This document shows, one piece after another, positions 1 through 20,676 of a stretch of DNA of 20,965 nt. This stretch comes from a virus. Numbering within the stretch: position 1 is the stretch's first letter; every line of letters starts with the position of its first letter. The notes under the pieces are model-generated. The model did no database searches. It was given only the letters and a program-made list of their open reading frames with translations, and was not told the DNA's origin. A program made the translations under genes and the position numbers. Location of the stretch: the IMG/VR virus record IMGVR_UViG_3300037010_001241, positions 1-20,965 of that record; one strand, written 5' to 3'.

Positions 1-162
1 AGCGACAAACGATTTACCGTTGCAGCAAATGCTTTAAGTGTAATGCCTTCGGTTGGCGATAAAATGATCGCGCAAGGGTCCAAATATACTATTGTGGGCA
101 TGGCAGTACAAATGGCTGCTGAAAATCCTGCTTACTATGTATATCACATTAGGCGAAAGTAA
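1..162 (+). CDS. Head-closure / head-tail joining-like protein, 3' end only
   Basis: The first 53 codons in frame 1 are open and end at TAA 160-162; the 5' part lies outside the window. The visible residues include the stretch MPSVGDKMIAQGSKYTIVG and end in HIRRK, a small beta-rich pattern (GDKM..QG..Y.I.G) like the C-termini of small head-closure or head-tail connector proteins that sit just before the gp10-like gene in siphophages. The stop overlaps the next start (TAATG), so the two are translationally coupled. The assignment rests mostly on position; the protein could be another small connector. Confidence 0.55.
   Translation, partial: SDKRFTVAANALSVMPSVGDKMIAQGSKYTIVGMAVQMAAENPAYYVYHIRRK
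93..100 (+). repeat. TGTGGGCA dispersed motif, copy 1
   Basis: Exact octamer in the head-closure-like gene, read ATT GTG GGC (Ile-Val-Gly). Context TATTGTGGGCATGG. Confidence 0.7.
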
Positions 163-617
163 TGGGCGAGTTTGCAGACTTTTTTTACAAATGGGAAAGA
201 GATTTGCATAATCAATCTGACGCTCTTGTTAGACAAGTTGCATTAGGCGTTATGGAAAGTCTTGTTGAAAAAAGTCCTGTAGGCGATCCTAGCCTTTGGG
301 CTCCTAAATCTTTGCCTCCGCCTCCTGGTTATGAAGGTGGCAAGTTTAAAGCTAATTGGCAATATGGTTTAGATAAGGTAAATGAATTAACTACTGACGA
401 TATTGATCCAACTGGTCAAATTAGCATTGATCAAATTGGTTTAATGCCAGACAAAGCAAGCGGACACATTCATTATATAACTAATAGTTTGCCATATGCT
501 AGAGTTTTAGAAGATGGTGAACACTCTAGTCAAGTTCCACCTCATGGAATGGTTGGTTTGACTGTTGTTGAATTTGAAGACATTGTTAATAAATCTGTTG
601 CGAGGATTAGAAAATGA
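162..617 (+). CDS. HK97 gp10-like tail completion (neck) protein
   Basis: 151 residues. The middle carries a 'SPVGDPSLW...GGKFKANWQ' segment and the C-terminal half 'YITNSLPYARVLEDGEHSSQ' followed by a PPHGMVGLT stretch. This is the hallmark layout of HK97 gp10-like / neck proteins (SPVDTG..R.NW ... I.N..PYA..LE.G.S.QAP.GMV). Such proteins join the connector to the tail tube during assembly. The start ATG overlaps the preceding stop by 1 nt and the gene ends in an ATGA overlap with the tail terminator. Length is usual for the family. The family match is by motif recognition, not a search. Confidence 0.85.
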   Translation: MGEFADFFYKWERDLHNQSDALVRQVALGVMESLVEKSPVGDPSLWAPKSLPPPPGYEGGKFKANWQYGLDKVNELTTDDIDPTGQISIDQIGLMPDKASGHIHYITNSLPYARVLEDGEHSSQVPPHGMVGLTVVEFEDIVNKSVARIRK

Positions 618-1024
618 GCCAAATAGAAATAAGACAGGCTCTTGAAAAAGCTTTAGACTCTATCACTCCTCAGATTTCAACTGCTTGGGAAAACAGAGTA
701 TTTGAAGCTACTGAAGACGTTCCTTATCAACGTGTTCATTTAATGCCAGCTCAGCCTTTAAATCCTGAAATTGGAGTTGGTGGTTTTTTCCAAGAACAAG
801 GAATTTTTCAAATTAGCTTATGCTATCCTTTAAACAATGGTCCAAAGGATGCAGATGCAAGGGCTGAACTGTATAGAACAGTCTTCTACCAAGGTTCCCA
901 GTTTACAAAGGGACAAACTAAGGTACAAGTAACCCGAACCCCTGCGATAAGCCTAGGCAAGGCTGATGGTGATCGCTGGATTGTTACTTTAAAGATCATG
1001 TATGTTGCAAACGGCTTAAACTAA
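614..1024 (+). CDS. Phage tail terminator protein (DUF4128 / gpU-like)
   Basis: 136 residues. It starts with an amphipathic helix (residues about 4-22), followed by the pattern 'YQRVHLMPAQPLNPEIG' and 'GIFQISLCYPLNNGPKDA', and a late 'TRTPAISLG..DGDRWIVTLKI' strand pair. This matches DUF4128-type tail terminators, which cap the finished tube and form the joining interface to the head. It lies between the gp10-like gene (4-nt ATGA overlap) and the tube gene (12-nt gap), the expected place. Confidence comes from both sequence pattern and synteny. Confidence 0.8.
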   Translation: MSQIEIRQALEKALDSITPQISTAWENRVFEATEDVPYQRVHLMPAQPLNPEIGVGGFFQEQGIFQISLCYPLNNGPKDADARAELYRTVFYQGSQFTKGQTKVQVTRTPAISLGKADGDRWIVTLKIMYVANGLN

Positions 1025-1036
1025 GGAAGCTGCAAA

Positions 1037-2254
1037 ATGGCTACTGCTCAGGGTATTTCTAAAATTACTGTGGTTGCTAAGCAAAGCGGGCTTGGCGTAC
1101 CTAACGTTACTGCTTCTGCTGGTCAAATCTTGCGGCGTGTTTCTTCCGTTGGTAAGATGGATCGTGCTACTTTTACCAATAATGAAATTAACCCTGATCA
1201 ACAGGATCGCGGTATTTCTTATGGTAACAAGAAGCCAGATATGAAGTTTTCTGGCTTGCTTTCAGCTTCTACTTATAAGCTGTTTATGGGCTCTATTATT
1301 CGCCAAACTTTTGTTGCTGGTGTTGCTGCTACTGCTGTTTCAATTACTATCGCTGGTGCTGGTCCTTCTTACACCGTAACTCGTGGTACTGGTTCTTACC
1401 TTACTGACGGTTTTAAAATTGGTGATGTTATTCGTCTGTCTGTTGGTGTTTTCAACGCTTCCAATATTAACAAGAACTTGCTGATCACTGGCTTAACTGC
1501 CACTGTTGCAACTGTCGTTGTTCTTAACGCTACAGCTATGGTTGCTGAAGGTCCAATTGCCACTTCTACTGTAACTGTTTTTGGTAAGAAGGCCGTTGCT
1601 CCTGTTACCGGCCAAACTAACGATTATTATACTATTGAAGAGTATTACTCTGATATTACTAAGTCTGACTTATTTACCGATATGAAGGTAAATAAGATGG
1701 ACATTAAGCTTCCGGGCTCTGGCAATTGCACTATTGATTTTGAGCTTATGGGTCTTGCTCGTACTATCAATGCTTCTCAACAAATGGCTACTCCTTCTGC
1801 TGTTACTACAAACCCAATTCTAACTTCTGTTAACGGTGACGTTTTATTAAACGGTACTTCTTTTGCAAATGCTACTGCGATTAGCATTAGTGTTGAAGCT
1901 GGCGTTGCTCAAGCTGAACCTGTTATCGGTTCTAATGTTGGTGTTGACCTTACCCGTGGCGTTACCAAGGTTAGCGGTTCTATCAGTGGAATGTTCACTG
2001 ATCAGCAAATTCAAACTCTGTATCAATCTGAAACTCCTACTCAGATTGTCTTTGTTGCTTCTGCCGACCAAAGCGCAACTTCTGATTTTATCTCGCTTAA
2101 CCTGTGGCGTGTTAAGTTCACTGGTGATGCTCCCGATGATGGTCAAAAGCTTATCGTTCGTACTTATCCGTTTACCGCTGAATACAATGCGGCTGGTGGC
2201 GCTGGTACTACTACCGATCAAGCTATTCTTTCTATCCAAGACAGTGCTGCTTAA
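1037..2254 (+). CDS. Major tail protein (tail tube subunit)
   Basis: 405 residues, rich in Thr, Val, Ala, Gly and Ser with alternating beta-strand patterns and no obvious signal or membrane segment. The N-terminus (about residues 28-75: 'GQILRRVSS...MDRATFTNNEI....QD.G..YG') is typical of phage tail-tube proteins. It is longer than lambda gpV (about 246 aa), so extra beta-rich material is present, here between roughly residues 90 and 180. SD AAGGAAG lies 7 nt before the ATG. Position between terminator and chaperone genes fixes the role. Codon use is strongly biased to GCT/GTT/ACT and AAG, as expected for a highly expressed structural gene. Antisense ORFs over the 3' half are shadows. Confidence 0.85.
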   Translation: MATAQGISKITVVAKQSGLGVPNVTASAGQILRRVSSVGKMDRATFTNNEINPDQQDRGISYGNKKPDMKFSGLLSASTYKLFMGSIIRQTFVAGVAATAVSITIAGAGPSYTVTRGTGSYLTDGFKIGDVIRLSVGVFNASNINKNLLITGLTATVATVVVLNATAMVAEGPIATSTVTVFGKKAVAPVTGQTNDYYTIEEYYSDITKSDLFTDMKVNKMDIKLPGSGNCTIDFELMGLARTINASQQMATPSAVTTNPILTSVNGDVLLNGTSFANATAISISVEAGVAQAEPVIGSNVGVDLTRGVTKVSGSISGMFTDQQIQTLYQSETPTQIVFVASADQSATSDFISLNLWRVKFTGDAPDDGQKLIVRTYPFTAEYNAAGGAGTTTDQAILSIQDSAA

Positions 2255-2290
2255 TCTCAGCACTTAACTTTTTAACACTGGAGAAATACA

Positions 2291-2746
2291 ATGTCTAAGA
2301 GTTCTGCCGCTGTTCCTGTTGTCGATCTTGCTGATTTTGATACTCGCAAAGCTTGCGACAATGCTGTTGAGATTGAACTTGTTCACCCTGTAACCGAAGC
2401 TGGTATTGGCGTTTTTATTAGCATTCTTGGGCGCGAAAGTAGCGTGTTCCAAAATGCTTTAAATAGCAAGATTAATCAATCTCTTAAGCTTCAAGCAGTT
2501 GGACGTGGCAAGCCAACCATTACTACTGTTGAAGGTAATGAACAAGAAGCGTCAGAACTTTTATCTAAGTGTACTACTGCTTGGCGTACTAAGCTGGATG
2601 ATGTCAGCCGTCCTGTTGTTTTCTTCAAAGGTGAAGAAATTGCTTTTTCTACTGCAAACGCCAAGCAGCTTTATTTAGAAAACAAGTGGATTAGACAGCA
2701 AGTTGACAAGGCTGTTGGCGACTTATCGCTTTTTTTTCAGGCTTAG
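2291..2746 (+). CDS. Tail assembly chaperone, short form (gpG-like)
   Basis: 151 residues, preceded by GGAG 8 nt before the ATG. It opens with a Val/Asp-rich segment and contains 'EIELVHPVTEAGIGVFISIL' followed by a helical C-terminal half, the layout of gpG-type tail assembly chaperones that coat the tape measure protein before tube polymerisation. Near its end the mRNA runs through seven in-frame T residues, allowing a -1 slip into the downstream frame (see the fusion entry). It lies immediately upstream of the tape measure gene, the universal location. It is expected to be the major product of the pair and absent from virions. Confidence 0.8.
   Translation: MSKSSAAVPVVDLADFDTRKACDNAVEIELVHPVTEAGIGVFISILGRESSVFQNALNSKINQSLKLQAVGRGKPTITTVEGNEQEASELLSKCTTAWRTKLDDVSRPVVFFKGEEIAFSTANAKQLYLENKWIRQQVDKAVGDLSLFFQA
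2731..2737 (+). promoter_or_regulatory. Programmed -1 ribosomal frameshift slippery site (T TTT TTT)
   Basis: Read in the gpG-like frame the heptamer is T|TTT|TTT, a perfect X XXY YYZ slippery sequence. The zero frame ends three codons later (CAG GCT TAG). After a -1 slip the frame opens with TCA GGC TTA and runs 129 codons to TAA 3124-3126. Tail-chaperone genes of siphophages nearly always use such a slip. I saw no strong stem directly downstream in the usual 5-9 nt spacing. Confidence 0.8.
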
Positions 2747-3126
2747 TTGAAGAAATAGTCGAATATGGTTTATCTGAATTTGCTTTAGATGCACCGGCTG
2801 GCGATGGTTTAACCCAACGCCAGCATTTCGAAAAGTTAGAAGAAAGAGGAACGTCAACACCTCTTTCTGACCCGGATAGACCAGAATTGCCCACATTAGG
2901 TAGCCTAGTGTGGGCAAAGTTTCTTCAACTAAGTAGTTTACGTGAAGTGGGCGAAACAGGCCCTAAACAGCTTTCTTGGCAAGCTATACAGGCTTGGCAA
3001 AACGTGACACATTCAAGTTTAGAGGAATGGGAATTGGCTACTATTCTCAAACTTGATAGAGAATACATACTTTCCAAACTTAGTAAAACTGAAGACACTT
3101 CTGAAGACGTACAGGAAGAAGGCTAA
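2737..3126 (+). CDS. Tail assembly chaperone extension (gpT-like part of the G-T frameshift fusion)
   Basis: This frame has no credible start of its own (a TTG at 2887 is the only start-like codon giving a sizeable ORF). It is entered by -1 slippage at 2731-2737, giving a fusion of about 278 residues (149 from the upstream gene plus 129 here). The extension has the helical 'LPTLGSLVWAKFLQLSSL' core and ends in an acidic, Glu/Asp-rich tail, as in gpT domains that recruit tail tube subunits. Its stop overlaps the tape measure start (TAATG). A 14-bp inverted repeat lies inside it at 2887-2917. Confidence 0.75.
   Translation, partial: SGLVEEIVEYGLSEFALDAPAGDGLTQRQHFEKLEERGTSTPLSDPDRPELPTLGSLVWAKFLQLSSLREVGETGPKQLSWQAIQAWQNVTHSSLEEWELATILKLDREYILSKLSKTEDTSEDVQEEG
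2888..2895 (-). repeat. TGTGGGCA dispersed motif, copy 2 (left arm of hairpin)
   Basis: Exact octamer on the - strand with extended form CTAATGTGGGCAATT. It pairs with copy 3. Confidence 0.75.
2909..2916 (+). repeat. TGTGGGCA dispersed motif, copy 3 (right arm of hairpin)
   Basis: Exact octamer with extended form CTAGTGTGGGCAAAG, read Val-Trp-Ala in the gpT-like frame. Confidence 0.75.
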
Positions 3127-6100: not shown

Positions 6101-6983
6101 GCAAGCTCAAGCTGAAATGAATATTGCTAATGGCAAAAGTACTTTTGCTGATATGATGACAACCGCTTTAGGACGTTTGGCTAATACTGGTAAATCTACT
6201 GCTCAACAACTTACTGACAGCTTCACTCAAGCAGCTACTACTATTGGCGATGGTCTAGCTAATAGTATCGGCAAAGCTTTTGTTGGTACTCAAAAGTTCG
6301 GCCAAGCTATCAGAGACGTTGCTAACAATGCCGTTTCTGATCTTATTGCAAGCCTTGTTAAAATGGGTGAGCAATGGTTGCTTCAACAGCTTCTTGGTAA
6401 AGCTGCAATGGCGGCAACTACGTCTGCTGGCGTGGCCCAGGCGGCGGTGCTGACGGCTGCTTATACCCCGGCTGCTGTTATGGCCTCTATCATGAGCTTT
6501 GGAGCTGCTGACGCCGCTGCGGCGGCTGGCATGGCCTCTACAATGGCTGTAGGGCAGGCTTTGGCTATGCTGCACCTTGCCAACGGTGGTCCCGTGACCG
6601 GACCGGGTGGTCCTAGGGAAGACAAAGTTCCAGCTATGCTTTCAGCTGGTGAATACGTAATAAATGCAGCGGCTGCTGCACAACACAGACCGTTGCTTGA
6701 TGCTATTAATAAAGGTCAATCGCTTAATAATCATTTTGCGAATGGTGGTAGTGTGGGCAGTGTTACTTATATGCCTGCTAACAATCATGCACCTATTTCC
6801 CATACTTGGGACTTTAGAGGTGCTAACTTTGGCGGTGCAAATCCCGCTGATATTGAACAGCGCTTTAGAAAAATCGTTGAACAAGAATATGCTCCTGTTC
6901 TGCTTAACATTGCTAGACAACAAGCAAGCAAAGATGTTAGCAACAGGATTGGCCGTCAAAGCTTAAATGGTAGAACAAGATGA
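3126..6983 (+). CDS. Tail tape measure protein
   Basis: 1285 residues, the longest gene in the window and directly after the chaperone pair, as always for tape measures. The first 360 residues are Ala/Gln/Glu-rich helical or coiled-coil sequence with three copies of the motif GKSAKxSAxVF starting at residues 189, 235 and 299. A hydrophobic segment lies at about 400-430 ('FTAAFAAAIAIIAGFIALW') and an Ala-rich hydrophobic one at about 1095-1150. The C-terminus has the conserved 'GGPVTGPGGPREDKVPAMLS.GEYVI' block found in many proteobacterial phage tape measures. The protein sets tail length (about 190 nm at 1.5 angstrom per residue) and is ejected ahead of the DNA. It has no visible lysozyme or peptidase domain. 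DNA at 6415-6610 is far richer in G+C than the rest of the gene. Confidence 0.93.
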   Translation: MTDLATLGIAIDSSSVPSAIGKVRELGDAAAVTEKQVGSLTATAAAQIEIIANLGNSTATLTQKQIQAAGGWQALNSAYIASYNNQLQAAQAVINYADRVDKLLASVDKYSAAQLRSNNVIKEADALYEAGVLSAGNYALVLAANSNNFDKTAASITGTIQQLEKLKAIQQGTNFASDVNTLLGVGSVGKSAKDSASVFEDMLKQQEALDKLREAQASSNFQYTIAQAAEIDLSGKSAKESAAVFSELIAQEEIIERQKADYLSQVARTQVEYAKVKALQEAQTFQSNIKYASELGLSGKSAKQSASVFIEEEQLRTAAVVKGEKAQAEAAIASAAEMAAAEEIKRTAWAVTDGEMTKVAGASMQLHVSTSLIARETVTIFRELARGDFSRLAGSTTLLAQGFGALTAAMLPFTAAFAAAIAIIAGFIALWADYDNHLATVNLSTVGLGTATGKTAEQLDELARKTAEAAGISENASAKNQLSLIRMGVTNTEVMTKIQLELKDYMAATGDKAPEALKTWAAAMKDPIKGAIDLNEKVGGLDGTTYELIKKLTEEGRILDADNLLIETFAAKTKNAAKEQSEFTKAIDGTKKAVGDFFLNTGKSLFGDAGDNQRASDYAGFPGAQSMADDKAAAKSKKEKAAATAAAAEEERQASLRAALAMDEYAPKYSKITELMNARKLVMDDIGRSGLSAKASDALSEIDKQIAKLKKQDVEHKSPQERYSDGTDKLNQQNVGLAKSIELYEKGDVAAAKYADAVGKANGEAAGKHISIGEAAARAQAILNNENLRAIETQVIKNNQTEASNNIQLRANKAVADGSLTVYQANQQIAQENALYQAGVVLAEAKGKKQQEAAQTAYDKQKQLIESGVYQKEISALQAANESYANQIELINLETASIGLSNKERAVRLAIAKEEQVVRSKGMENTPEGRKAISNAGLTAGLSAELNSIKSPLSSLEDETAKYNGQLIALRAQWAAGSISATQYKLAVNNIKQAQAEMNIANGKSTFADMMTTALGRLANTGKSTAQQLTDSFTQAATTIGDGLANSIGKAFVGTQKFGQAIRDVANNAVSDLIASLVKMGEQWLLQQLLGKAAMAATTSAGVAQAAVLTAAYTPAAVMASIMSFGAADAAAAAGMASTMAVGQALAMLHLANGGPVTGPGGPREDKVPAMLSAGEYVINAAAAAQHRPLLDAINKGQSLNNHFANGGSVGSVTYMPANNHAPISHTWDFRGANFGGANPADIEQRFRKIVEQEYAPVLLNIARQQASKDVSNRIGRQSLNGRTR
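4414..4421 (+). repeat. TGTGGGCA dispersed motif, copy 4
   Basis: Exact octamer in the tape measure gene, read Leu-Trp-Ala. Context GCATTGTGGGCAGAT. Confidence 0.7.
6752..6759 (+). repeat. TGTGGGCA dispersed motif, copy 5
   Basis: Exact octamer near the tape measure 3' end, read Ser-Val-Gly, so in a different phase from copy 4 within the same gene. Context GTAGTGTGGGCAGTG. Confidence 0.7.
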
Positions 6984-8883: not shown

Positions 8884-9316
8884 AGTAGATAAAGATTGGA
8901 TTACTCTTTTAGGACAACACATCAAAACCAACATGCAGACGCCCATGGAATGGGGCGTTTTTGATTGTGTAATGTGGGCAACTAGCTGTGTTAAAGTTAC
9001 AACTGGCGTAGACTATTATGAGCCTTTTGAAGGCAAATATGACACAGCTGCTGGCGCCGCTAAAGTGTTATTGGGTGAAGCTGAAAGCATTAGTGCTTTG
9101 TGCGAAAAGTATTTTGGTGAAGAAAAGCATGTTGCTTTTGCAGTAACTGGAGATATTGTAAAAGCTTCTGTTAATAAAATACAACAAGATGCTGAATATA
9201 ACAGCGTATTCAATTGTGCACTTGGCATTGCATACGGTGGAATGGCTTATTTTGTAGGCGATGAAGGTTTGGTTGTTTATCCGCTGTTAGAAATGGATGG
9301 CTGTTACAATGTCTAG
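8843..9316 (+). CDS. DUF6950 / NlpC-P60-like tail-tip protein (gpK position)
   Basis: 157 residues. 'TPMEWGVFDCVMWATSCVKV' (about residues 33-52) holds the W-G-x-x-D-C motif of DUF6950, a family related to NlpC/P60 cysteine peptidases in phage tail tips. The Cys of the D-C pair would be the nucleophile. The 'HVAFAVTGDIV' strand further on fits the same fold. A conventional NlpC catalytic His is not obvious, so hydrolase activity is uncertain. Lambda gpK-type proteins sit at this place and are thought to trim peptidoglycan or process the tip. The early start is supported by GGAGG 8 nt upstream. Confidence 0.7.
   Translation: MVNTSQTSKCRLTKVDKDWITLLGQHIKTNMQTPMEWGVFDCVMWATSCVKVTTGVDYYEPFEGKYDTAAGAAKVLLGEAESISALCEKYFGEEKHVAFAVTGDIVKASVNKIQQDAEYNSVFNCALGIAYGGMAYFVGDEGLVVYPLLEMDGCYNV
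8973..8980 (+). repeat. TGTGGGCA dispersed motif, copy 6
   Basis: Exact octamer in the DUF6950 gene, read Met-Trp-Ala just after the D-C motif. Context GTAATGTGGGCAACT. Confidence 0.7.
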
Positions 9317-11768
9317 TGTTGTTAAAGCAGTAGTTGGCGTAATTGCCATTGCAGCGGCTGTTTTTGTACCTGGTCTTGGTACAGTCCTTGCAGCGTCTTT
9401 GCTTATCGGTGGAGGGGCTTTAGTTGTAAGCTCTGTTCTTGCACCTATGAATGCAAAGAAAAATTCTTCAACTAACACTGCTTTACAACAAACTTTAAAT
9501 CCTGATGAATATAGAAAAATTGTTTTCGGCAAAGCTCCTGCTGGCAATGATATTAGATATTGGGAAGTTTATGGTTCCGCTGGTTATGATCAGATAATTG
9601 TTGCTGCAACTCACAAAATCAATTCTTTTCAATCTCTTTGGATTGAAGGAAATGCTTGCTCAATTTCTAGCGGTAATGTGACCGAAACTATTGTTTCTTC
9701 TACAGGCACTACTACTAAGAGCGGCTTCTTAAACGTTCTGTATAACACTATGGGCGTTACAGCAACTAACTTAGCTGCTGGTCAAGGTACTCTTTGGAAC
9801 TCTTCTTGTTCTTTAACTGGCTTAGCTTACTACAGGCTAAAATGGACTTATGACCAAAAGAAAATGCCCAATGGTTTCCCCAACCGCATTGTTCAGGTGG
9901 TTGAGGGGGCTTTGGTCTATGATCCTCGCAGAGATAGCACTGTAGGCGGCTCAGGCTCACACAGGGCCAATGATCAGACAACTTGGGACTATGCTACAAC
10001 TGATAGCAACGGTGTACCTCTTGGGCTCAACAATGCCCTTCAAATGCTCTGGTATTTGATCGGTTGGCGTATTCAAAACCCACAAACAAACGAATGGATA
10101 CTTGTTGCCGGTAGAGGTGTAAATTTAAATGATATTGATTATGCTTCTTTTATTTTAGCAGCAAACCAATGCGAAGCGGCTCAATATTATACAGATATGG
10201 TGCTTAGCACTGGCGATACACATTCCACTAATGAAAATATTATTAGCTCAGGATCGCAAGGCGTTTTAGTTGATACTGGGGGACTGTGGTCTTATTATCC
10301 TGCTGTTGATGATACAGCTTCTATTGCTGTTGCTTTTACCGATGACGATATTATCTCTGGTGTTGTTTGGACGCCAAAAGCTAGCATTACTTCACAATAT
10401 AATGAAGTTAATGGGACTTTCATTGATCCTTCACAAACTGTTTTGTATCAATCTGCACCTTATCCTTCTGTTAAAAGTGCAACATATTTAAGCCAAGACA
10501 ACAACTTTCCAGCTAGAATGAACCTTGATTTTCAATGTGTTCAATCGGCCGCACTTGCACAAAAACTTGCCTGGATTGCTCTTAACAAAAGCCGTCTAAG
10601 CGGTGTATTTAAAGCAACATTTAATCTTAGAGCTTTTCAGGCTAAGAATTACAACTGTTGCACTTTAAGCTTTGCACCACTTGGTTTTGTCAACAAGCTG
10701 TTTAGAATTACAAAGCAAAGCATTAACCCTGCTGGCGGAATTGATCTTGAACTTACAGAAGAAAGCGCGGCTGTTTATAGCAGTGGCACAATTAATAGCT
10801 ATACTGCACCTTCTCAAGGTTTAAGCTATGATCCGGCTCAGCTTATTAATGTGGGCACTGTAACAGCAACTTCTACTTTTATTAATGGTTCTGGTTCTAC
10901 TGTTGTAGATGCGTTAGATGTTATTTGGCCAGCTGCTGCTGCAAATGTAAGAGCTTTTGAAGTTTATTACTGTCTGCATGGCGCAACTGTCTACATTCCT
11001 TGGGGAACTATTGCTGCTGACAAAAATGAAGTAATTATTGCTCCCTTACAACCTTCGACTTCTTATGATGTTTTAGTTAGAACAATTTCTGTAAATGGAG
11101 TTGTTGGCAACTTCTCTTCGGTTACTCAAAGCACTGGAAATCACAACACTATTCCGCTTGCCAGTGTAGCCGGGGCTGGTACTGTTGCTGGCATCACTCC
11201 ACCTAGCTATGCTGGCATGTCTGCTGCTTTATCGGCTTTGGGTGTTGGACAATTGTTTTCTGATACTACAGACAGCAATAAGGTTAAATCCACTACTGGT
11301 TCAGTTCTTGTTCCTAAAGTTGTAAACGGTGTTGGAACTGGTTCGATTTCTAATGTAAGTGCAAACACTTCTTGCTTTATTAACTTTACAGGAATTACAA
11401 CTGGTGGATTTTGGAACTTTAATGCTCAGTTAAGCACAAGATCAGCAACAACTCCATATACTACTTTAACTTCTGCTGCTGGTACTTGGCAAATTATAGA
11501 AACGCAAACAGGCGGTGGCGGTTCTACTAATATCATTGCAAGTGGAACTTGGAGTTCTGGACCTTATAGCGCTGGTGCTCCGGGTATCAACTTTGCGCCT
11601 GATACTATTTATTCTAATATGCTTCAAATGTCAGGTGGACCGCTTGCAAATATAAATACCGGAAATGTTACATTAACCTTGGCCTTACAAATTACTTCTG
11701 GTACTGGTTCTTTAGCGGCTATTACAAACGGAATTTTAATGACTGCTACATTTACTCCAACGCAATGA
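9297..11768 (+). CDS. Tail tip attachment protein, fused gpI+gpJ-like (host-specificity)
   Basis: 823 residues. Residues about 5-50 hold two glycine/alanine-rich hydrophobic helices ('VVGVIAIAAAVFVPGLGTVL'), as in gpI-type tip proteins. The region 55-500 has the gpJ pattern: 'NPDEYRKIVFGKAPAG', 'RIVQVVEGALVYDPRRDS', 'WDYATTDSN..PLGLNNALQ', and 'FRITKQSINPAGGIDLELTE'. A fibronectin-III-like unit follows ('AFEVYYCLHGAT...LQPSTSYDVLVRTIS'), then a Gly/Ser/Thr-rich beta domain from about 630, the likely receptor-binding end. The start may be ATG 9297 or 9309; neither has a strong SD, and the gene overlaps the gpK-like gene by 20 nt. The 9850-10060 segment is GC-richer than its surroundings. Confidence 0.82.
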   Translation: MAVTMSSVVKAVVGVIAIAAAVFVPGLGTVLAASLLIGGGALVVSSVLAPMNAKKNSSTNTALQQTLNPDEYRKIVFGKAPAGNDIRYWEVYGSAGYDQIIVAATHKINSFQSLWIEGNACSISSGNVTETIVSSTGTTTKSGFLNVLYNTMGVTATNLAAGQGTLWNSSCSLTGLAYYRLKWTYDQKKMPNGFPNRIVQVVEGALVYDPRRDSTVGGSGSHRANDQTTWDYATTDSNGVPLGLNNALQMLWYLIGWRIQNPQTNEWILVAGRGVNLNDIDYASFILAANQCEAAQYYTDMVLSTGDTHSTNENIISSGSQGVLVDTGGLWSYYPAVDDTASIAVAFTDDDIISGVVWTPKASITSQYNEVNGTFIDPSQTVLYQSAPYPSVKSATYLSQDNNFPARMNLDFQCVQSAALAQKLAWIALNKSRLSGVFKATFNLRAFQAKNYNCCTLSFAPLGFVNKLFRITKQSINPAGGIDLELTEESAAVYSSGTINSYTAPSQGLSYDPAQLINVGTVTATSTFINGSGSTVVDALDVIWPAAAANVRAFEVYYCLHGATVYIPWGTIAADKNEVIIAPLQPSTSYDVLVRTISVNGVVGNFSSVTQSTGNHNTIPLASVAGAGTVAGITPPSYAGMSAALSALGVGQLFSDTTDSNKVKSTTGSVLVPKVVNGVGTGSISNVSANTSCFINFTGITTGGFWNFNAQLSTRSATTPYTTLTSAAGTWQIIETQTGGGGSTNIIASGTWSSGPYSAGAPGINFAPDTIYSNMLQMSGGPLANINTGNVTLTLALQITSGTGSLAAITNGILMTATFTPTQ
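10850..10857 (+). repeat. TGTGGGCA dispersed motif, copy 7
   Basis: Exact octamer in the tip protein gene, read Asn-Val-Gly. Context TTAATGTGGGCACTG. Confidence 0.7.
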
Positions 11769-11776
11769 GGTTTGAT

Positions 11777-11929
11777 ATGAACACCGATAAAAAGATTTTA
11801 ATTGCTGGTCTGTCTTTAATTGCTATTATAACTGCTGCTTGCAGCGACAAGGCTTCGCAGCCGATCAACAATGTATCGGGTGGGCCGCCTTCTCAGTCAC
11901 CCTCTACAACGCACACAGCGCAAAGCTAA
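11777..11929 (+). CDS. 50-residue lipoprotein at the end of the tail operon
   Basis: ATG 11777 follows GAGG (11767-11770, overlapping the previous stop) by 6 nt. The product starts MNTDKK, has a hydrophobic core and a lipobox ending T-A-A-C with Cys22. The mature 29 residues start CSDKAS and are Pro/Ser/Thr-rich. Ser at +2 does not match the classic Asp+2 inner-membrane retention signal, so outer-membrane sorting is plausible. Two ideas fit: a superinfection-exclusion lipoprotein like T5 Llp, whose gene also neighbours the receptor-binding gene, or an Rz1-like spanin subunit. No Rz partner or lysis gene is next to it, which favours the first. Its TAA overlaps the polymerase stop on the other strand. 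Confidence 0.72.
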   Translation: MNTDKKILIAGLSLIAIITAACSDKASQPINNVSGGPPSQSPSTTHTAQS

Positions 11930-13902
11930 AACAAAGTAGCTGTTTCAGGTCTGGCTATAATTCCTACGTCTTTAAGAGCTTCGTAAGCTTCATTGATGTA
12001 GTAGTTATAGTCTAGATCGTGTGGAATAGAAGAAGGTAGGCGTAAGCACGGTTGAGCGGCTTCGCTCTTTGGAACATTGTCACCAGATAGCACGTAGTTA
12101 ATCGTTCCTTTAGCTTCTGTGGAATAGTACCAACGAATTGCTTTACCGAGATATTGTCCTGATTTCTCAGCGCCGCCTTTAACGGTTCGTAAGCTAATAA
12201 ATCTTCTAATATCTATACAGGCGCGTACTGTATCCCTAAGTTTTGTTCCGTTTGCAATATAACTTTGCACTGCATCTGAAATAATATTAGACTCTGGGTT
12301 TTTACTAAGTACGCTGTTAAGAGCACTTCCTGTTTCGGAATATATGCCTTTACACTTACAGTTGCCGTCTTCTTTAACTGCTATGTAGTTATTAACATCT
12401 CTAGAGTGAATTGATCTATATCTTGTTTCTTCAGTGGTAAAACCTGTTCGCTTTTCCCAAGCATTGATAATGTTTTCAAATGCGGTGTATCTTGCTTTAG
12501 GTACGACTGTTACAATTCCATCTGTGTTTGCCGATATGACGTTAAAGCCATTTAATTCAAGCTCCTCAATTTGCATTAGCAGATAAAGCTGGCCACTTAC
12601 TGTAACTTGAGTAAGAAGATCAGGAGTATAAAGCTTGCTGAACGTGCTTCCAAGCTTTCCAAAGCTTCCATTAACAACGATCTTAAGAGCATCGGCAAAG
12701 ATTTTATTGCCTGCTGCTTTTGCTTCAAGACGCCTAAGAACAATTGCCATGTAAACGTCTAAGAAACGTTCGCCAAGGTGAGTTGGATAAAGCTGTTGAT
12801 TAAGAATAATAAAAGGATAGTAACTTGCAACATCTCTATCAACAATGAAATTTTCATTAGACGAATAATAGGATGCTGACTTTTCGCAGGAATGCAATCC
12901 GCCATTACCCATCCTATAAGTAGAACGCCCAATGTTAATGTTGAGACTGGCAATGATCTCAGGTGTAGTTGTAGCGCCCTTGGCAGAAATGACAAATTCG
13001 GCATTTCTAATTACCTCTAAAACATGTTGAAGCTTCGGAGTTTTAAAGCTAATATTGTCAGGAACTTTGTATTTAATAACAGTACCAAAATCCCATTTGG
13101 GGGCTTTGCCCACACGAATACCGGCTTGGCGAAGTTCACTAACAATAACAGTTTCGGCAATTTGAGCATCTGACTTGGATCGCAAATCCATTCCGTATTG
13201 CGAACCAAGTTCTTCACGAAGCTTGATATAAGGTTCAAGCTCATTATAAAGAAGCATGGTAACGTCAAGATCGTTGATGTTATAATCTCTGACGTTGATA
13301 GCTTCTGTGTAAGACAAATCCTTCATATGATAATATGGCAATTCTTGGATTTGTTGGCAGTGCATTCTACCTCCGTAAATCTTAAGACTTGCTTCAAGCG
13401 GTGCAACTTCAATCAAATCAATGTGATTGCAATTTGAAAGAGGACCAACAAAAGTAGGATAATCTTTATTGATAATTCTATTAGACACGTCTTTAAGTGC
13501 CGAAGTATTTAAGCCTTCAAGGGCTGCGCCAGTTAAAGGAAAGTCATAGTTAATAGAATTAAATCCAATAATGGTAAATCTGTGAAGCATATAGTTTAGC
13601 AAGTCACGCCAAACTTCAAAAGTTAAGAGAGTACTATTAATTTTATATCCGTCTGGATCAAGTTCAAAATAAATAACTTTCTTGTCTTCAAAGCTTCTAA
13701 AAGAACCTAGCCAGTAGTTTGGATAGCATTCAACGTCATAGGCGAAGCGGGCCTTATGAATGGCGAATAGCTCAGTAGGGCTCAGGGTCGCATACGCGGG
13801 CGCTGGCGGGATTTGTGCAGCTTCTAGGGTAGGAGTGGCTCGCCCCATACGGCGAGCCCTCCGCTGACGATCTGGACGGCTGGCGGCAAACTCAATGGCC
13901 AT
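11926..13902 (-). CDS. Family B DNA polymerase with 3'-5' exonuclease
   Basis: 658 residues. Exonuclease motifs: Exo I 'FAYDVECYPNYW' (Asp56, Glu58), Exo II 'GFNSINYDFPLT' (Asn115-Asp120), Exo III 'YNINDLD' (Tyr207-Asp211). Polymerase motifs: A 'RDVASYYPFIIL' (Asp357), B 'KIVVNGSFGKLG' (Lys407, Asn411), C 'SANTDGIVTVV' with Asp461. Motif C has Asn in place of the first Asp of the usual D-T-D, while the second, metal-binding Asp is kept. At 658 residues it is smaller than T4-type enzymes (about 900). It is probably the replicative polymerase, working with the upstream clamp-like protein. SD AAGGGA precedes ATG 13902; an ATG 5 nt upstream is followed at once by TAA, which is the stop of the coupled 45-aa gene. 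The first 45 residues are Arg/Ala/Pro-rich and GC-rich at DNA level, unlike the rest. Confidence 0.92.
   Translation of the reverse strand: MAIEFAASRPDRQRRARRMGRATPTLEAAQIPPAPAYATLSPTELFAIHKARFAYDVECYPNYWLGSFRSFEDKKVIYFELDPDGYKINSTLLTFEVWRDLLNYMLHRFTIIGFNSINYDFPLTGAALEGLNTSALKDVSNRIINKDYPTFVGPLSNCNHIDLIEVAPLEASLKIYGGRMHCQQIQELPYYHMKDLSYTEAINVRDYNINDLDVTMLLYNELEPYIKLREELGSQYGMDLRSKSDAQIAETVIVSELRQAGIRVGKAPKWDFGTVIKYKVPDNISFKTPKLQHVLEVIRNAEFVISAKGATTTPEIIASLNINIGRSTYRMGNGGLHSCEKSASYYSSNENFIVDRDVASYYPFIILNQQLYPTHLGERFLDVYMAIVLRRLEAKAAGNKIFADALKIVVNGSFGKLGSTFSKLYTPDLLTQVTVSGQLYLLMQIEELELNGFNVISANTDGIVTVVPKARYTAFENIINAWEKRTGFTTEETRYRSIHSRDVNNYIAVKEDGNCKCKGIYSETGSALNSVLSKNPESNIISDAVQSYIANGTKLRDTVRACIDIRRFISLRTVKGGAEKSGQYLGKAIRWYYSTEAKGTINYVLSGDNVPKSEAAQPCLRLPSSIPHDLDYNYYINEAYEALKDVGIIARPETATLF
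13107..13114 (-). repeat. TGTGGGCA dispersed motif, copy 8
   Basis: Exact octamer on the - strand in the polymerase gene, read Arg-Val-Gly-Lys. Context ATTCGTGTGGGCAAAG. Confidence 0.7.
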
Positions 13903-14039
13903 TACATTTCCCTTGTAATAGTAATCTCAAAAGTTTTAATGCCGCCGTAGTATTTGCTAGCGAAAGAAAGCTTCCAGCCGCTAAGCTTTAGCAAATCTTT
14001 CAGCTGCAGCAAAATTAGTTCAATCGTTGCCGACTTCAT
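13902..14039 (-). CDS. 45-aa protein between clamp and polymerase
   Basis: This short ORF begins MKSATIELILLQLKDLLKLS and ends ITREM. Its ATG overlaps the last 20 nt of the clamp-like gene in another frame, and its TAA overlaps the polymerase ATG by 1 nt (TAATG). The 138-nt span would otherwise be an unusual non-coding gap in a tightly packed operon. The N-terminal 20 residues form a Leu-rich amphipathic helix; the rest has strand-like 'KTFEITITRE'. I do not recognise a family. Double coupling suggests a real gene, possibly tuning translation of the polymerase or a small replisome partner; that is inference. Confidence 0.65.
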   Translation of the reverse strand: MKSATIELILLQLKDLLKLSGWKLSFASKYYGGIKTFEITITREM

Positions 14040-15201
14040 TTACAATCGCTCCAATAATAACACCTCGCATATTATTACCGAAAAAGAAAACTCTATCGGT
14101 GTAAGTAGTAAGGTCAACTGTGGAAACAAAAGGAGCAATTAGTTTTGCCCTTTCAACGTTAAGGCAAATTACGTTTGAAGCCATACCTTCAACTTCGTAT
14201 TGTGCTCCTGTATTATCTTTAAGGTTTGTAGAAACAAAACCATCTTTAAGATAGATAAAGCCGTTTTCCGAAAACTCGCCAGCTTTTTCAATGCCTTCAA
14301 ATAGTGTGGGCATTACAGGAACTTGATTGCTAGGAACATCAATAACTTGTTGGAAAGTAGGGTATTCGTCTGCATACAATTGAGTTTTAACCCAAGCACC
14401 GCCTTCAAACCAAAAAGTAATAGACTTTTCAGCGTTCCAACCAAAACCAACAAGAGGCGCTTTGTTAGAAACAACTGCTTTGACAAAAATCTTAGGAACA
14501 ACAAGATTTGGCGGCAAGCTAATGCCGTGCCAATATTGCATAAGAACTTTTGTGTCAGTAGCTGTAACTACGTTAGCTTCAAGTAGAACAGAAGCTTTAA
14601 AAGCTTGGTCTGAATTTTCATCTGCAATCTTGCCAACACAAGCAAAGGCGTGCTTAAGCCTGTCATCAATAGGCGCGATCATAGGATCAGGCACAGTACC
14701 TGGATATTCTTCAGCTTCCAAGCAAGGAACAAGAACACGAAGCTTTCCACCTTTAACTGAAATTCGGTTAGTTTCAAGTTCAGTTATTGAAAATGTGTCG
14801 CCACACTGCTTAAGAGCTTTCTTAAGAATTTCGTAATTGGGAACAAGAGCAATTTGTTCTTCAACAGGATAGCCAGCGGTAACTACACCATCTGTCATTT
14901 TAACATAATCATCTTCGAAGATACAGAAGCTATTGCTACTAAAGCCTCTGTCTTCAGAAGCTACGCCAATGAAAGCAAGAGCTTCGTAAAGCTGTGAGTT
15001 CTTCTTAGGCTTTGCAACTACAGTTTTCTTAGCTGCGTTAGTTGATCCTCTAGGGCGTCCCATTTTAAATCTCTCCAATTCTTCAGGAAGTAAGTGATTA
15101 GGATAGAGCTTTGCATATTCACACCCACATGTACCATATTGCCCTTTGTGAAAGGTGCGATACAAGTTGTGCTCAATTAGTATGTCTAGGTCTTTAATCA
15201 T
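14020..15201 (-). CDS. Beta-sliding-clamp-like DNA polymerase processivity factor
   Basis: 393 residues from ATG 15201, or 347 from ATG 15063. The body has DnaN-like features: repeated strand-helix units, 'VVTATDTKVLMQYW' matching the clamp 'ATD.HRL' segment, 'PPNLVVPKIFVKAVVS' matching 'iP.k.l..l.k', and 'WVKTQLYADEYPTFQQVID' matching 'l.srLidG.FPdy..vi'. The role would be to tether the polymerase encoded two genes downstream. The match is by pattern, so divergence is large. Start choice is open: ATG 15201 is TAATG-coupled to the upstream gene and in frame throughout, while ATG 15063 has a strong GGAGAG SD at 7 nt and gives a length nearer the usual 370. The sequence from 15063 opens MGRPRGSTNAAKK, an AT-hook-like basic segment. 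Confidence 0.7.
   Translation of the reverse strand: MIKDLDILIEHNLYRTFHKGQYGTCGCEYAKLYPNHLLPEELERFKMGRPRGSTNAAKKTVVAKPKKNSQLYEALAFIGVASEDRGFSSNSFCIFEDDYVKMTDGVVTAGYPVEEQIALVPNYEILKKALKQCGDTFSITELETNRISVKGGKLRVLVPCLEAEEYPGTVPDPMIAPIDDRLKHAFACVGKIADENSDQAFKASVLLEANVVTATDTKVLMQYWHGISLPPNLVVPKIFVKAVVSNKAPLVGFGWNAEKSITFWFEGGAWVKTQLYADEYPTFQQVIDVPSNQVPVMPTLFEGIEKAGEFSENGFIYLKDGFVSTNLKDNTGAQYEVEGMASNVICLNVERAKLIAPFVSTVDLTTYTDRVFFFGNNMRGVIIGAIVNEVGND
14305..14312 (+). repeat. TGTGGGCA dispersed motif, copy 9
   Basis: Exact octamer on the + strand, antisense to the clamp-like gene, which reads Met-Pro-Thr-Leu there. Context ATAGTGTGGGCATTA. Confidence 0.7.
15071..15076 (-). promoter_or_regulatory. 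Internal Shine-Dalgarno GGAGAG in the clamp-like gene
   Basis: GGAGAG lies 7 nt before the in-frame ATG 15063. It is the best-placed SD of the clamp gene and suggests either that 15063 is the true start or that two clamp forms, with and without a 46-residue N-terminal extension, are made. Confidence 0.55.
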
Positions 15202-15425
15202 TAGAACGGTATCAAATCTGTGTGCTGTTCGCAACCGACAACTATAACTTCAGGAGGCGGCAAAGCTCTAGCCAAAGAACAGCCTTCCGGTAAGTTATTA
15301 ATACCTCTTTGCCAATGTTCGCAATTTAAACAATTTCGAAAAATACCTGCATCTAATAGAGTTTCTACTAGAACTATCAAAGTTCTTTGTCTGGCTTCGT
15401 ACAAGTATTTTTCGCGCATGTTCAT
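15201..15425 (-). CDS. Small four-cysteine (probable zinc-binding) protein
   Basis: 74 residues. After a helical first half (residues 4-28), four cysteines follow as C32-x2-C35-x13-C49-x15-C65, a likely zinc site. The same spacing (C-x2-C-x12-C-x15-C) and flanking residues (Asn before the first Cys, a Pro and hydrophobics before a final Gly-Cys-acidic step) occur in the C-terminal tail of the Cas4-like protein at 17638-18540. The gene lies between the helicase and the clamp, and its TAA overlaps the clamp's upstream ATG. The start is ATG 15425 or the second Met at 15419; no clear SD. Function unknown; a nucleic-acid-binding or protein-docking zinc module is the natural guess. Confidence 0.65.
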   Translation of the reverse strand: MNMREKYLYEARQRTLIVLVETLLDAGIFRNCLNCEHWQRGINNLPEGCSLARALPPPEVIVVGCEQHTDLIPF

Positions 15426-15436
15426 TTGCTATTGTT

Positions 15437-15499
15437 TCAAAGCTTAATTGCTGCAATTTCAGTTCGTAAAGCTAGATTTTGATAAGTATTGGCATCCAT
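15437..15499 (-). CDS. 20-codon ORF, possible leader or MazG-like gene remnant
   Basis: ATG 15499 follows AGGAG (15508-15512) by 8 nt, one of the best SD sequences on this strand, yet the frame stops after 20 codons. The peptide begins MDANTYQNLALRTEIAAIKL, and 'YQ.LALRTE' recalls the N-terminus of phage MazG-like nucleotide pyrophosphohydrolases. It could be a truncated remnant whose start signals survive, or a short translated leader coupling the helicase to the four-cysteine gene. The MazG link rests on a very short match. Confidence 0.3.
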   Translation of the reverse strand: MDANTYQNLALRTEIAAIKL

Positions 15500-15501
15500 G
15501 T

Positions 15502-17136
15502 TCAAAACTCCTGTGATAGAACTTGGGGATGGGGGTTTCTATTAAGCCAAACCTTAATAGTCTTTGGAGCACGAAGGTAAGAAACAAGGTTTAAAACATC
15601 TGCATTGGTAAGATGTTCCGGCGGTTCGCCGTATATTTGTCTAAACCAATCTCTTCCTTGATGCTTAGTGAACTGTTTAGGACCTTCAACAGATTTCCAA
15701 TCATAGAAGGTGCGCAAACCACAGTAATAACTGATCTTGATAGACTTGTTGCCTGTTTTGCTAGTGTGGGCAGTATAAACAACCCTGTTAACTTTAATGT
15801 CTTCCACTAATGGAAGCTCCGACTTCATTACTTCGGCTCTAGAAGCTTCAGTAGTAAGAATGGGAGAAAAGTCAAACTCCAAGCCGCAAGCTATACATTG
15901 CCGAAAAGTGGCATGATTATACACGCCACAATTAGGACATATTCTAGTAGGAGCAGGGCCGCCGCCACTTTCCCCTTTTTTTCTAGGAATTAAAGGATCA
16001 TTAATTGGTCCTAGTCTACGGGTATTGCCTGCAAAATCAAGTATAAGACCATTATACTTAATATAACCATTTTCTTTAAAAGGTCTGGTGAGACGGCCAT
16101 ATTTTTGAACGTGCTTTCCTGTTGACATTGTTGGCTGTAGATCAGCACAAATATCAAGCATAGGACTATCAACGCCAGTAGTGAGCATGTTCATGTTTAC
16201 AGCATGTTTTACTCTACCCAGCTTCCAGTTTTCCAATGCTTTATCGTTTTGTTTATCTGTACGCTTGGAATGAAGAATTACAGCAGGAACATTGAAAACA
16301 TCATTTATCATTTCCCAAATATGCTCAGCATGTTTAACTCCAGAAGCAAATACAATGCCAGAACGTCTATCTTCAGAATACTGCAAATATTGAGACAAAG
16401 CAGCTTGATTAACATCTGATTTATCTACAGCTTCTTCAAGTTCACCTTGCTTGTATTCACCTTTGGAAAATCCTACTCCTGAAACATCAAGCTGAACAGC
16501 AAGACGGCTAGGAATAATAAGAGGGCAAATATAGCCTTCGGCAATTAGACGGCCAAAGCCTTCAAGATTACATTGGTTATAAACAATATCAGTAAAAATA
16601 CTGCCATTGGTCATAAGACCAAGACCCATACGATAAGGAGTGGCAGTAAGGCCAATAACTTTAAGAAAAGGATTTCTAAGCCTAAGTTCATTGATAAATT
16701 GAATATAACGTCCTTCGTCACCTAAAAGGTGCGCTTCGTCAATTATCAAGAAATCAACTTTTCCAAAAATTAGTTTTCCGGCCATAGATTGAATACCGCC
16801 AAATATAATTGGCTGATAATAATCTCTTTGGTTAAGACCTGCTGAAAATATGCCCACAGGTGCAAGAGGCCATACTTCAAGTAGCTTTTGGGCGTTCTGC
16901 TTGATCAACTCTTTAACGTGAGTTGCCATGATGACACGAGTATTTGGAACAAGCTCAAAACAGCGTTGAATGAACTTCGCGATAACAACGCTCTTGCCTG
17001 TACCTGTGGGCAAACAGATAAGCGGATTCTTTTGAACTGGATTGCCTTTGTCATCAAGTGGCCTAGGAACGCCATAGTATTCAAACAGGCGCTCTATAGG
17101 TTCTGCTTGATACCAACGTTCTTCAAAGACCTTCAT
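15502..17136 (-). CDS. SF2 DEAH-box helicase with zinc ribbon
   Basis: 544 residues. Motif I 'LPTGTGKS' (Lys48), motif II 'IIDEAH' (133-136), motif III 'GLTATP' (162-167), motif V 'NMNMLTTGVDSP' (about 314-325) and motif VI 'QKYGRLTRP' (344-352) are all intact, so an active ATP-driven DNA translocase of the RecQ/Rad25/type I restriction-like SF2 branch is expected. A four-cysteine ribbon, C400-x2-C403-x10-C414-x2-C417, follows the second RecA domain, then about 125 residues of unassigned sequence. Phages of this type use such helicases in replication in place of a DnaB-type enzyme; no DnaB-like gene is seen here. AAAGG lies upstream of the ATG. The gene starts 12 nt after the winged-helix gene stop. 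Confidence 0.88.
   Translation of the reverse strand: MKVFEERWYQAEPIERLFEYYGVPRPLDDKGNPVQKNPLICLPTGTGKSVVIAKFIQRCFELVPNTRVIMATHVKELIKQNAQKLLEVWPLAPVGIFSAGLNQRDYYQPIIFGGIQSMAGKLIFGKVDFLIIDEAHLLGDEGRYIQFINELRLRNPFLKVIGLTATPYRMGLGLMTNGSIFTDIVYNQCNLEGFGRLIAEGYICPLIIPSRLAVQLDVSGVGFSKGEYKQGELEEAVDKSDVNQAALSQYLQYSEDRRSGIVFASGVKHAEHIWEMINDVFNVPAVILHSKRTDKQNDKALENWKLGRVKHAVNMNMLTTGVDSPMLDICADLQPTMSTGKHVQKYGRLTRPFKENGYIKYNGLILDFAGNTRRLGPINDPLIPRKKGESGGGPAPTRICPNCGVYNHATFRQCIACGLEFDFSPILTTEASRAEVMKSELPLVEDIKVNRVVYTAHTSKTGNKSIKISYYCGLRTFYDWKSVEGPKQFTKHQGRDWFRQIYGEPPEHLTNADVLNLVSYLRAPKTIKVWLNRNPHPQVLSQEF
15765..15772 (+). repeat. TGTGGGCA dispersed motif, copy 10
   Basis: Exact octamer antisense to the helicase gene, which reads Thr-Ala-His-Thr there. 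Context CTAGTGTGGGCAGTA, identical over 12 bases to copy 3. Confidence 0.7.
16851..16858 (-). repeat. TGTGGGCA dispersed motif, copy 11
   Basis: Exact octamer in the helicase gene sense strand, read Pro-Val-Gly-Ile. Context CACCTGTGGGCATAT. Confidence 0.7.
17005..17012 (+). repeat. TGTGGGCA dispersed motif, copy 12
   Basis: Exact octamer antisense to the helicase Walker A codons (Leu-Pro-Thr-Gly), the one copy that a conserved protein motif could partly explain. Context TACCTGTGGGCAAAC. Confidence 0.65.
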
Positions 17137-17147
17137 TGTGCGAACCT

Positions 17148-17537
17148 TTAATTTTTTTCAAAACGTTCCAAAGAACGCCTAACAACTTCTTCTCTAGAAA
17201 TATTAATTCTGTAGTTTTGCTCCTTCGTACAAATTATAATATCTCTACCTAGTTTCCTTCTAATTTTACTTATATAAACATTTACAATTCTAATGTCACG
17301 TTCTTTAACATGATCTTTTTTTGGCAAACCTTCTTCAATTGCATACACATTTACACTTTTTGGATAAGCATGTAAAAGAATTTCAATAATTGTAATTTCG
17401 TGACGAGTTAAACCGACAACAGTAAATACTTCAGGAACAGGCTCAATGTCTTTGGCCACAAGCATTGCTTCAAGCTGAATTATTCTAGCTTTCAAGAAGT
17501 CAATATATAATAGTGGTCTATGTCTTGAGGGTTCCAT
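17148..17537 (-). CDS. Stand-alone winged-helix DNA-binding protein (CtrA/OmpR C-terminal type)
   Basis: 129 residues. A short N-terminal coiled coil ('FLKARIIQLEAMLVAKD', about 14-30) precedes a winged helix: 'LTRHEITIIEILLHAYPKSV' (43-62), recognition helix 'RDIRIVNVYISKIRRKLG' (80-97) and wing strands 'IIICTKEQNYRI' (100-111). This follows the trans_reg_C pattern 'LT..E..iL..L ... vdvhIskLRrKL ... i.T..g.GYri'. There is no receiver domain. Proteins with a coiled coil plus a CtrA-like wing are common in alphaproteobacteria and their phages. It is likely a phage transcription regulator or a competitor of host CtrA at its sites; both are inference. The 100-bp gap upstream has an inverted repeat and one GTGGGCA motif, candidate autoregulatory sites. 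SD weak. Confidence 0.72.
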   Translation of the reverse strand: MEPSRHRPLLYIDFLKARIIQLEAMLVAKDIEPVPEVFTVVGLTRHEITIIEILLHAYPKSVNVYAIEEGLPKKDHVKERDIRIVNVYISKIRRKLGRDIIICTKEQNYRINISREEVVRRSLERFEKN

Positions 17538-17570
17538 ATATTAGCTTTCTGTTTTACAAGCTTTACAAGT

Positions 17571-17577
17571 TGCCCAC
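17571..17577 (-). repeat. GTGGGCA, 7-base variant in the winged-helix promoter gap
   Basis: CGTGGGCA on the - strand, 34 bp upstream of the winged-helix ATG and the only copy outside a larger gene. Context TTATTCGTGGGCAAC shares the TTCGTG flank with copy 8. Confidence 0.55.
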
Positions 17578-17593
17578 GAATAAGCATAAAATA

Positions 17594-19606: not shown

Positions 19607-19608
19607 TT

Positions 19609-20457: not shown

Positions 20458-20612
20458 TAGAACTTCCTCAACAGGCTATCGGCTCTAGATTTAGAACCTT
20501 CCATTACTTTTGTAAGATTGGCTTTCTCAAGACTGGAAAGCTTTTCTTTCAGCTTCGTAACTTTGTTATATATATCGGTTTTTGCTTTTGCTTTTTCATT
20601 ATAGCTTCTCAC
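20457..20612 (-). CDS. 51-codon basic helical ORF (GTG start), coupled to the AAA_24 gene
   Basis: The frame from GTG 20612 encodes a Lys/Glu-rich helical peptide (core 'KLKEKLSSLEKANLTKVMEG') ending RKF, and its TAA overlaps the AAA_24 ATG by one base. Coil-forming character and stop-start coupling argue for translation. The start is poor: GTG with only a weak GAAAG 3 nt upstream. A frame change from the ORFs just upstream could supply a better one. Confidence 0.45.
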   Translation of the reverse strand: MRSYNEKAKAKTDIYNKVTKLKEKLSSLEKANLTKVMEGSKSRADSLLRKF

Positions 20613-20668
20613 AAACTTTCAAAACTACGGCCATCGCAATTAAAGCAAAAGCAAAACCAATTAAACAT
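20609..20668 (-). CDS. 19-aa ORF with strong SD; possibly a frame-broken membrane peptide
   Basis: AGGAG (20674-20678, overlapping the previous stop) is 5 nt before ATG 20668, but the frame gives only a Cys/Phe-rich 19-mer (MFNWFCFCFNC...). One base over, the same stretch (20667-20599) encodes a clean transmembrane-like segment 'CLIGFAFALIAMAVVLKVC' with no start codon. A single-base indel near 20662 would join the good start to that segment. Either a real tiny gene, a frameshifted membrane peptide, or a sequence error. Confidence 0.3.
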   Translation of the reverse strand: MFNWFCFCFNCDGRSFESL

Positions 20669-20676
20669 TTTAGCTC

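Follow-up and report, generated by a model that had tools for sequence, protein, structure and literature searches.

The octamer TGTGGGCA occurs in 12 exact copies, distributed over both strands, in a 20,965-base fragment of a phage genome (IMG/VR virus record IMGVR_UViG_3300037010_001241; "the window" denotes this whole stretch of DNA). In the current work, we found that this word, or a drifted form of it, is over-represented in phages of many hosts and that it goes together with one replication gene, which encodes a primase resembling that of phage NrS-1. We consider it likely that TGTGGGCA is the template start site of the phage's own NrS-1-type primase, in which an archaeo-eukaryotic primase (AEP) domain and a helix-bundle domain (HBD) are fused to a helicase.

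Results

A dinucleotide shuffle of the window predicted 0.54 copies of TGTGGGCA, and none of 100 shuffles reached 12; a trinucleotide Markov model of the window predicted 0.33. In a codon-preserving shuffle, a check that had been proposed in an earlier reading of the letters alone (the original prediction), the 9 copies within genes compared with 0.74 expected, and none of 2000 shuffles gave more than 5. Taken over three null models, the chance expectation was 0.3-0.7, in keeping with the earlier estimate of less than one copy. TGTGGGCA also heads the ranking of over-represented 8-mers in the window (z of 14.7, versus 8.1 for the runner-up), and post hoc choice of the word therefore fails to account for the enrichment. 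Copies with one mismatch showed no excess over the exact ones (21 in total, 12 of them exact, versus 14.1 expected), which makes the site a sharply defined octamer. The longer form TARTGTGGGCA is matched by seven of the 12 copies, the same count as before, and the coding copies occupy two codon phases and encode differing residues, which agrees with the earlier claim that the copies fall in different frames. Nine of the 12 lie within listed genes; those of the right arm comprise three antisense and two sense sites. The 12 copies all matched the positions and strands of the original prediction, and the additional GTGGGCA that it had placed at 17571 on the minus strand is present and reads CGTGGGCA. 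The sites are as follows (all are exact matches to TGTGGGCA except the last).

93..100, plus strand: site kept in the near-identical contig L014
2888..2895, minus strand: site forming an inverted-pair arm with 2909; kept in L014
2909..2916, plus strand: site kept in L014
4414..4421, plus strand: site in the tape-measure gene (L-W-A)
6752..6759, plus strand: site in the tape-measure gene (S-V-G-S)
8973..8980, plus strand: site (M-W-A)
10850..10857, plus strand: site (N-V-G-T)
13107..13114, minus strand: site in the DNA polymerase gene, sense; kept in L009
14305..14312, plus strand: site in the clamp gene, antisense; kept in L009
15765..15772, plus strand: site in the helicase gene, antisense; kept in L009
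16851..16858, minus strand: site in the helicase gene, sense; kept in L009
17005..17012, plus strand: antisense site in the helicase gene; reads TGTGGGTA in L009, which is 98-99% identical
17571..17578, minus strand: one-mismatch site, CGTGGGCA, which is the predominant form in VCLv21, a Variovorax phage

In the near-identical contigs L009 and L014, the sites are kept except for the one base change. The original prediction had also remarked that the last 3.4 kb are empty; no site does occur there in the window, but this is no real boundary, because TGTGGGCA resumes in the overlapping contig L172 (near L172:2488(-) and L172:4592(+)). The sites at 2888 and 2909 form an inverted pair, TTGCCCACA...TGTGGGCAA (window 2887-2917), in what is likely the tail-chaperone frameshift region, between an open reading frame end at 2746 and the tape-measure gene.

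The motif was found in other phages, both distant and cultured. Two distant records, G001 (22 kb) and G002 (49 kb), contain 13 and 14 copies of TGTGGGCA, respectively, and none of a reversed control word, and TGTGGGCA is the top 8-mer in both. The cultured phages compared were those sharing the replication genes; among these, TGTGGGCA was counted in FtMidnight (E. coli; 16 copies versus 0.9 expected), Kaya (P. aeruginosa; 17 versus 0.3), Lucius (Sphingomonas; 19 versus 0.5), W9 (Acinetobacter; 24 versus 0.7), RcSpartan (Rhodobacter; 16 versus 0.25), and PmaS-R3 (Paracoccus; 26 versus 0.8), and a spring-water genome, ctUnS216, holds 30 (0.6 expected). Kmi2C (Klebsiella) carries TGTGGGCT as well as TGTGGGCA, and VCLv21 likewise has TGTGGGCA beside its predominant form. 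Elsewhere, the word has drifted: to TGTGGTCA in 9g, ESCO3, NP1, BUCT548, and R31B (30-57 copies versus 1.9-3.1 expected), to TGTGGTTA in CAjan (47 versus 2.7), to TTGTGGGT in Salmonella phage S144 (32 versus 1.4), and to CTGTGGTC in RHEph04 (14 versus 1.1). A further form, TTGTGGGG, occurs in L212-L215 (14-20 copies; 0.6-0.7 expected), whose primase N-terminal parts are identical. A relative of the window phage (L010 and L015; ~67% identity) has zero copies of TGTGGGCA and 11 of TGTGGG, with other flanks (2.4 expected). Overall, TGTGGGCA or a drifted form is a leading over-represented 8-mer in lytic phages of many hosts, Vibrio and Salmonella included; TGTGG[GT][CT]A fits most of the group, the GTGG core is present in every version, and the base preceding it is conserved and usually T, such that a primer would start with A. 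The earlier claim of genome-wide asymmetric protein-recognition sites is supported. Of the sites aligned between Kaya and FtMidnight, 6 of 12 (or 6 of 17) persist, versus 12% of other 7-mers, so that some individual sites are conserved and others have been replaced.

Profile searches over the genomes and fragments fetched were used to build a gene-motif matrix, with the full-length primase defined as the AEP and helix-bundle part plus the DUF3987 helicase part. A full-length primase was found in all motif-bearing genomes with a known replication region and in none of the motif-less genomes; a replication-protein site had been among the alternatives raised by the original prediction, and it is this one that the matrix favors. 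For every other gene of the module (polymerase, clamp, helicase, Cas4, single-stranded DNA-binding protein [SSB], and Sak4), there are genomes with the gene and no motif, genomes with the motif and no such gene, or both. A family-B polymerase is missing from two motif-bearing phages, S144 and PmaS-R3; S144 (L236-L238) carries a divergent primase of the same family. Conversely, the motif is missing from RcAqua, phiAxp2, and 9NA, which have the polymerase, and in RcAqua and phiAxp2, the polymerase is the only module gene. The motif is kept without a detectable clamp in G003 and ctUnS216. L011 was considered as a case for separating the primase from the module and was dropped, as its other module proteins also resemble those of phages with T at motif position 6 (T-type; see below); its primase is nearest the G-type by raw identity. 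YuA is uninformative as a module-swap control because no module gene is common to it.

The matrix also bears on the alternative that survives best, namely, that another phage replication or recombination protein reads the sites (Cas4 and the helicase in a RecBCD-like manner, or Sak4 or SSB), amounting to a phage-encoded Chi-like system. The motif is G rich, asymmetric, and strand biased, as Chi is, and most genomes with the motif also encode the helicase, Cas4, and Sak4. However, Mcat24 has the helicase, Cas4, SSB, and Sak4, and 16-3 clearly has the helicase and Cas4, with neither primase nor motif in either phage, while the motif persists in Axy19 without detectable Cas4 and in BUCT548 without detectable SSB. 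To our knowledge, no known specificity of Cas4, helicase, Sak4, or SSB proteins matches GTGG, and we regard this explanation as unlikely.

In an independent scan, 80 IMG/VR loci were located by their primase alone, and the 72 of at least 8 kb were counted. TGTGG was contained in the top 8-mer of 47 of these 72 loci and within the top three of 52, and most of the other primase loci still had TGTGGG in excess. Among control loci located by the tail-tube protein, from which L058 and L070 (where the motif was already known) and loci of <8 kb were left out, the top 8-mer contained TGTGG in 0 of 32.

The window phage itself encodes an NrS-1-type primase just past the window end. Contig L172, which overlaps the end of the window, runs on into a primase-helicase gene (L172:2715-5042, plus strand; phrog_3022, E 1e-180) whose product aligns with the group through the HBD; the assignment is based on the phrog_3022 match and this alignment. 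We suggest that the L172 primase-helicase is the protein that binds the motif. The replication genes of the window and their neighbors are as follows.

11926..13902, minus strand: family-B DNA polymerase (phrog_1252, E 3e-192)
14020..15234, minus strand: polymerase processivity factor, or clamp (phrog_947, E 3e-43)
15502..17136, minus strand: SF2 DNA helicase (phrog_16, E 2e-76; ResIII/DEAD/Helicase_C)
17148..17537, minus strand: OmpR/PhoB-type winged-helix domain protein (Trans_reg_C), with no homologue in the related phages compared
17638..18540, minus strand: Cas4-domain exonuclease (phrog_1990, E 3e-91)
18950..19606, minus strand: SSB (phrog_6015, E 4e-59; DUF669)
19609..20457, minus strand: Sak4-like ATPase (phrog_124, E 3e-27; AAA_24)
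19156..20965, plus strand: overlap with IMG/VR contig L172 (1810 bp, 99.95% identity)

A tRNA-Leu gene (TAA; window 18811-18895, minus strand) lies between the SSB gene and that of a DUF3297 protein; the replication module of Kaya holds a tRNA-Gln gene.

The primase of NrS-1 is known to recognize TTTGGTTA, and GTGG more efficiently; its HBD binds the site, and synthesis starts 1-4 nt 5′ of it, while the archaeal pRN1 ORF904 protein recognizes GTG (PMC8718748). The N-domain profile of the group described here matches NrS-1 primase structures (E 6e-41), several members match the Pfam family NrS-1-HBD (PF22763), and HBD residues R249 and K251 of NrS-1 appear to be aligned with the conserved R-x-K of the group (numbering inferred). 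The two also share the GTGG core, and the CAjan word, TGTGGTTA, is one base off TTTGGTTA. They differ in that the C-terminal helicase of the group is of another type and most group phages have a separate polymerase.

One residue of the HBD covaries with the motif. Across 95 aligned primases, this residue, which was selected as the best-fitting of 300 columns, is R or K in 80 of the 87 whose genomes lack T at motif position 6 (G-type, TGTGG-G) and N, I, or P in each of the 8 whose genomes have T there (TGTGG-T); NrS-1, with TTTGGTTA, has I. The surrounding sequence is FYTQNRAQI where the residue is R or K and FYxxSNxQC where it is N (L088:19683-21950, L082:31866-34202, and 93 others). The identity of this residue (R/K versus N) is a candidate specificity determinant.

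In most of 18 genomes, the sites are set at more regular intervals than random placement would give (combined p about 3e-26), and 149 of 225 sites are co-oriented with the late genes (p 1e-6); these multigenome statistics treat related phages as independent, and the combined p values therefore overstate the evidence. Spacing on the major strand is about 1.7-2.8 kb, and in RcSpartan, the gaps between the 19 major-strand sites have a median of 2.4 kb, with a coefficient of variation of 0.24, versus 0.93 at random. The late-gene orientation persists across blocks of oppositely directed genes, and sites occur on both strands in 18 of 18 genomes. The sign of the GC skew agrees with site orientation in 14 of 18, the skews being small and confounded with gene direction.

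Discussion

If TGTGGGCA is the start site of the primase, primer synthesis might proceed as follows. An advancing fork would expose single-stranded lagging-strand template, in which the HBD would read GTGG together with the 3′ flank [GT][CT]A; the primase would then start a primer at the conserved T or just 5′ of it, and the polymerase would extend this primer into an Okazaki fragment. Selection would keep one copy per ~2 kb, mostly on the late-gene strand, and would be needed because a 7- to 8-nt word is rare by chance. From the sites, we infer both fork direction and Okazaki fragment length: since they lie mostly on the late-gene strand, forks would travel mainly in the late-gene direction. 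A stronger form of this proposal is that Okazaki starts are hard-coded, by 8-nt sites set near-regularly at 2 kb on the main lagging-strand template and coevolving with the HBD residue, and to this we would give an even chance. The biochemical principle would be a known one; for its use across a whole genome at evenly spaced sites, we found no earlier description, and a literature search found no paper describing the motif.

Another parallel is T7 gp4, a TOPRIM/zinc-finger primase whose sites (GGGTC, TGGTC, and GTGTC) are about 5 nt long. Like the group described here, gp4 is a phage primase-helicase fusion that starts Okazaki fragments at specific words; unlike it, gp4 has an unrelated fold and shorter sites.

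Several observations weigh against primase start sites. An 8-nt start site is long compared with the usual 2-5 nt, and the sites favor one strand by only about 2:1. For the L172 primase, the match to the Pfam HBD family is subthreshold (E 0.0055). T-type genomes form almost one clade, on which the covariation largely rests; given this, and the selection of the residue from among 300 columns as the best, the covariation is a lead and no proof. The NrS-1 genome has no dispersed octamer and only one TTTGGTTA, versus 12-57 sites per genome or fragment in the group, and when NrS-1 and its IMG/VR relative L220 were used as positive controls for dispersed sites, both were negative. Similarly, no dispersed TGTGG word was found in 9NA, LP-101, phi105, NrS-1, or A2, which have the N-terminal primase part alone. 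HBD homology by itself is therefore not predictive of the motif. One possibility is that such sites pay only where the primase travels with the fork helicase.

The sole TTTGGTTA of NrS-1 (L223, 17198-17205, minus strand) lies 147 bp past the primase gene and is a plausible origin; the top 8-mer of that genome is AGTGTAAC. In 9NA (L108-L110), CCCGTGG is present in 28 copies (3.7 expected). RcAqua (L087) encodes a different prim-pol (PF09250, PriCT_2, and VapE) and over-represents another word, GTTGTAGA (8 copies; 0.29 expected), which could be the start site of that enzyme.

A second alternative, which we consider quite improbable, is that the sites are programmed single-strand nicks of the kind described for Pseudomonas phage Rembedalsseter and for phages tf and phiKMV. 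Those nick sites are likewise dispersed, motif bound, conserved within families, and, in the case of the Rembedalsseter word, over-represented family-wide; however, the latter reads WACTRTGAC, with all nicks on one strand (PMC11780129), whereas TGTGGGCA is another sequence and is found on both. A nicking role also predicts no association with a primase. It is still harder to see the motif as a target for DNA modification or packaging. Phage 9g and its relatives do carry deazaguanine DNA-modification genes by annotation, but most motif-bearing genomes looked at, including the seen part of the window phage, have no such genes, and a modification target explains neither the even spacing nor the association with the primase.

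We find almost nothing to recommend the analogy first drawn by the original prediction, that with the repressor-bound stoperators of mycobacteriophage L5. Stoperators are asymmetric, dispersed sites bound by a repressor and lying mainly between genes. TGTGGGCA shares the asymmetry and the genome-wide dispersal, and in the tail operon, 6 of 7 sites read with transcription, which bears out the earlier statement that all but one do so. In contrast to stoperators, the sites are mainly intragenic and occur on both strands, sense and antisense, and the enrichment follows the primase and no repressor. The winged-helix protein at 17148-17537 is the only DNA-binding regulator recognized in the window, and it had been put forward as a binder; none of the other genomes compared, with or without the motif, encodes a homologue of it.

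A word belonging to the host, such as host Chi or a DNA uptake sequence, has as little to commend it: the length and G-richness are Chi-like, but the same octamer is found in phages of E. coli, Klebsiella, Pseudomonas, Sphingomonas, Rhodobacter, Acinetobacter, and Paracoccus, and phages of E. coli alone hold three versions (TGTGGGCA, TGTGGTTA, or TGTGGTCA), so the word is not set by the host. Neither FtMidnight nor 9g shows notable enrichment of E. coli Chi, and we rejected a host word, also as a reading of the Chi-like recombination site listed by the original prediction, on the host range of the phage genomes compared (host genomes were not searched).

If TGTGGGCA and its drifted forms are indeed primase start sites, lagging-strand starts would be readable from sequence in Septimatrevirus, Lokivirus, Queuovirinae, and others, and Okazaki ends, fork direction, and fragment length would become predictable for phages never studied in the laboratory. 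Fragments of this group could also be recognized by the motif as a signature in their sequence, and the pairs of primase and site would constitute a natural series with which to work out how a helix bundle reads DNA. It would further mean that, in these phages, selection acts on primase sites genome-wide and at near-regular spacing.

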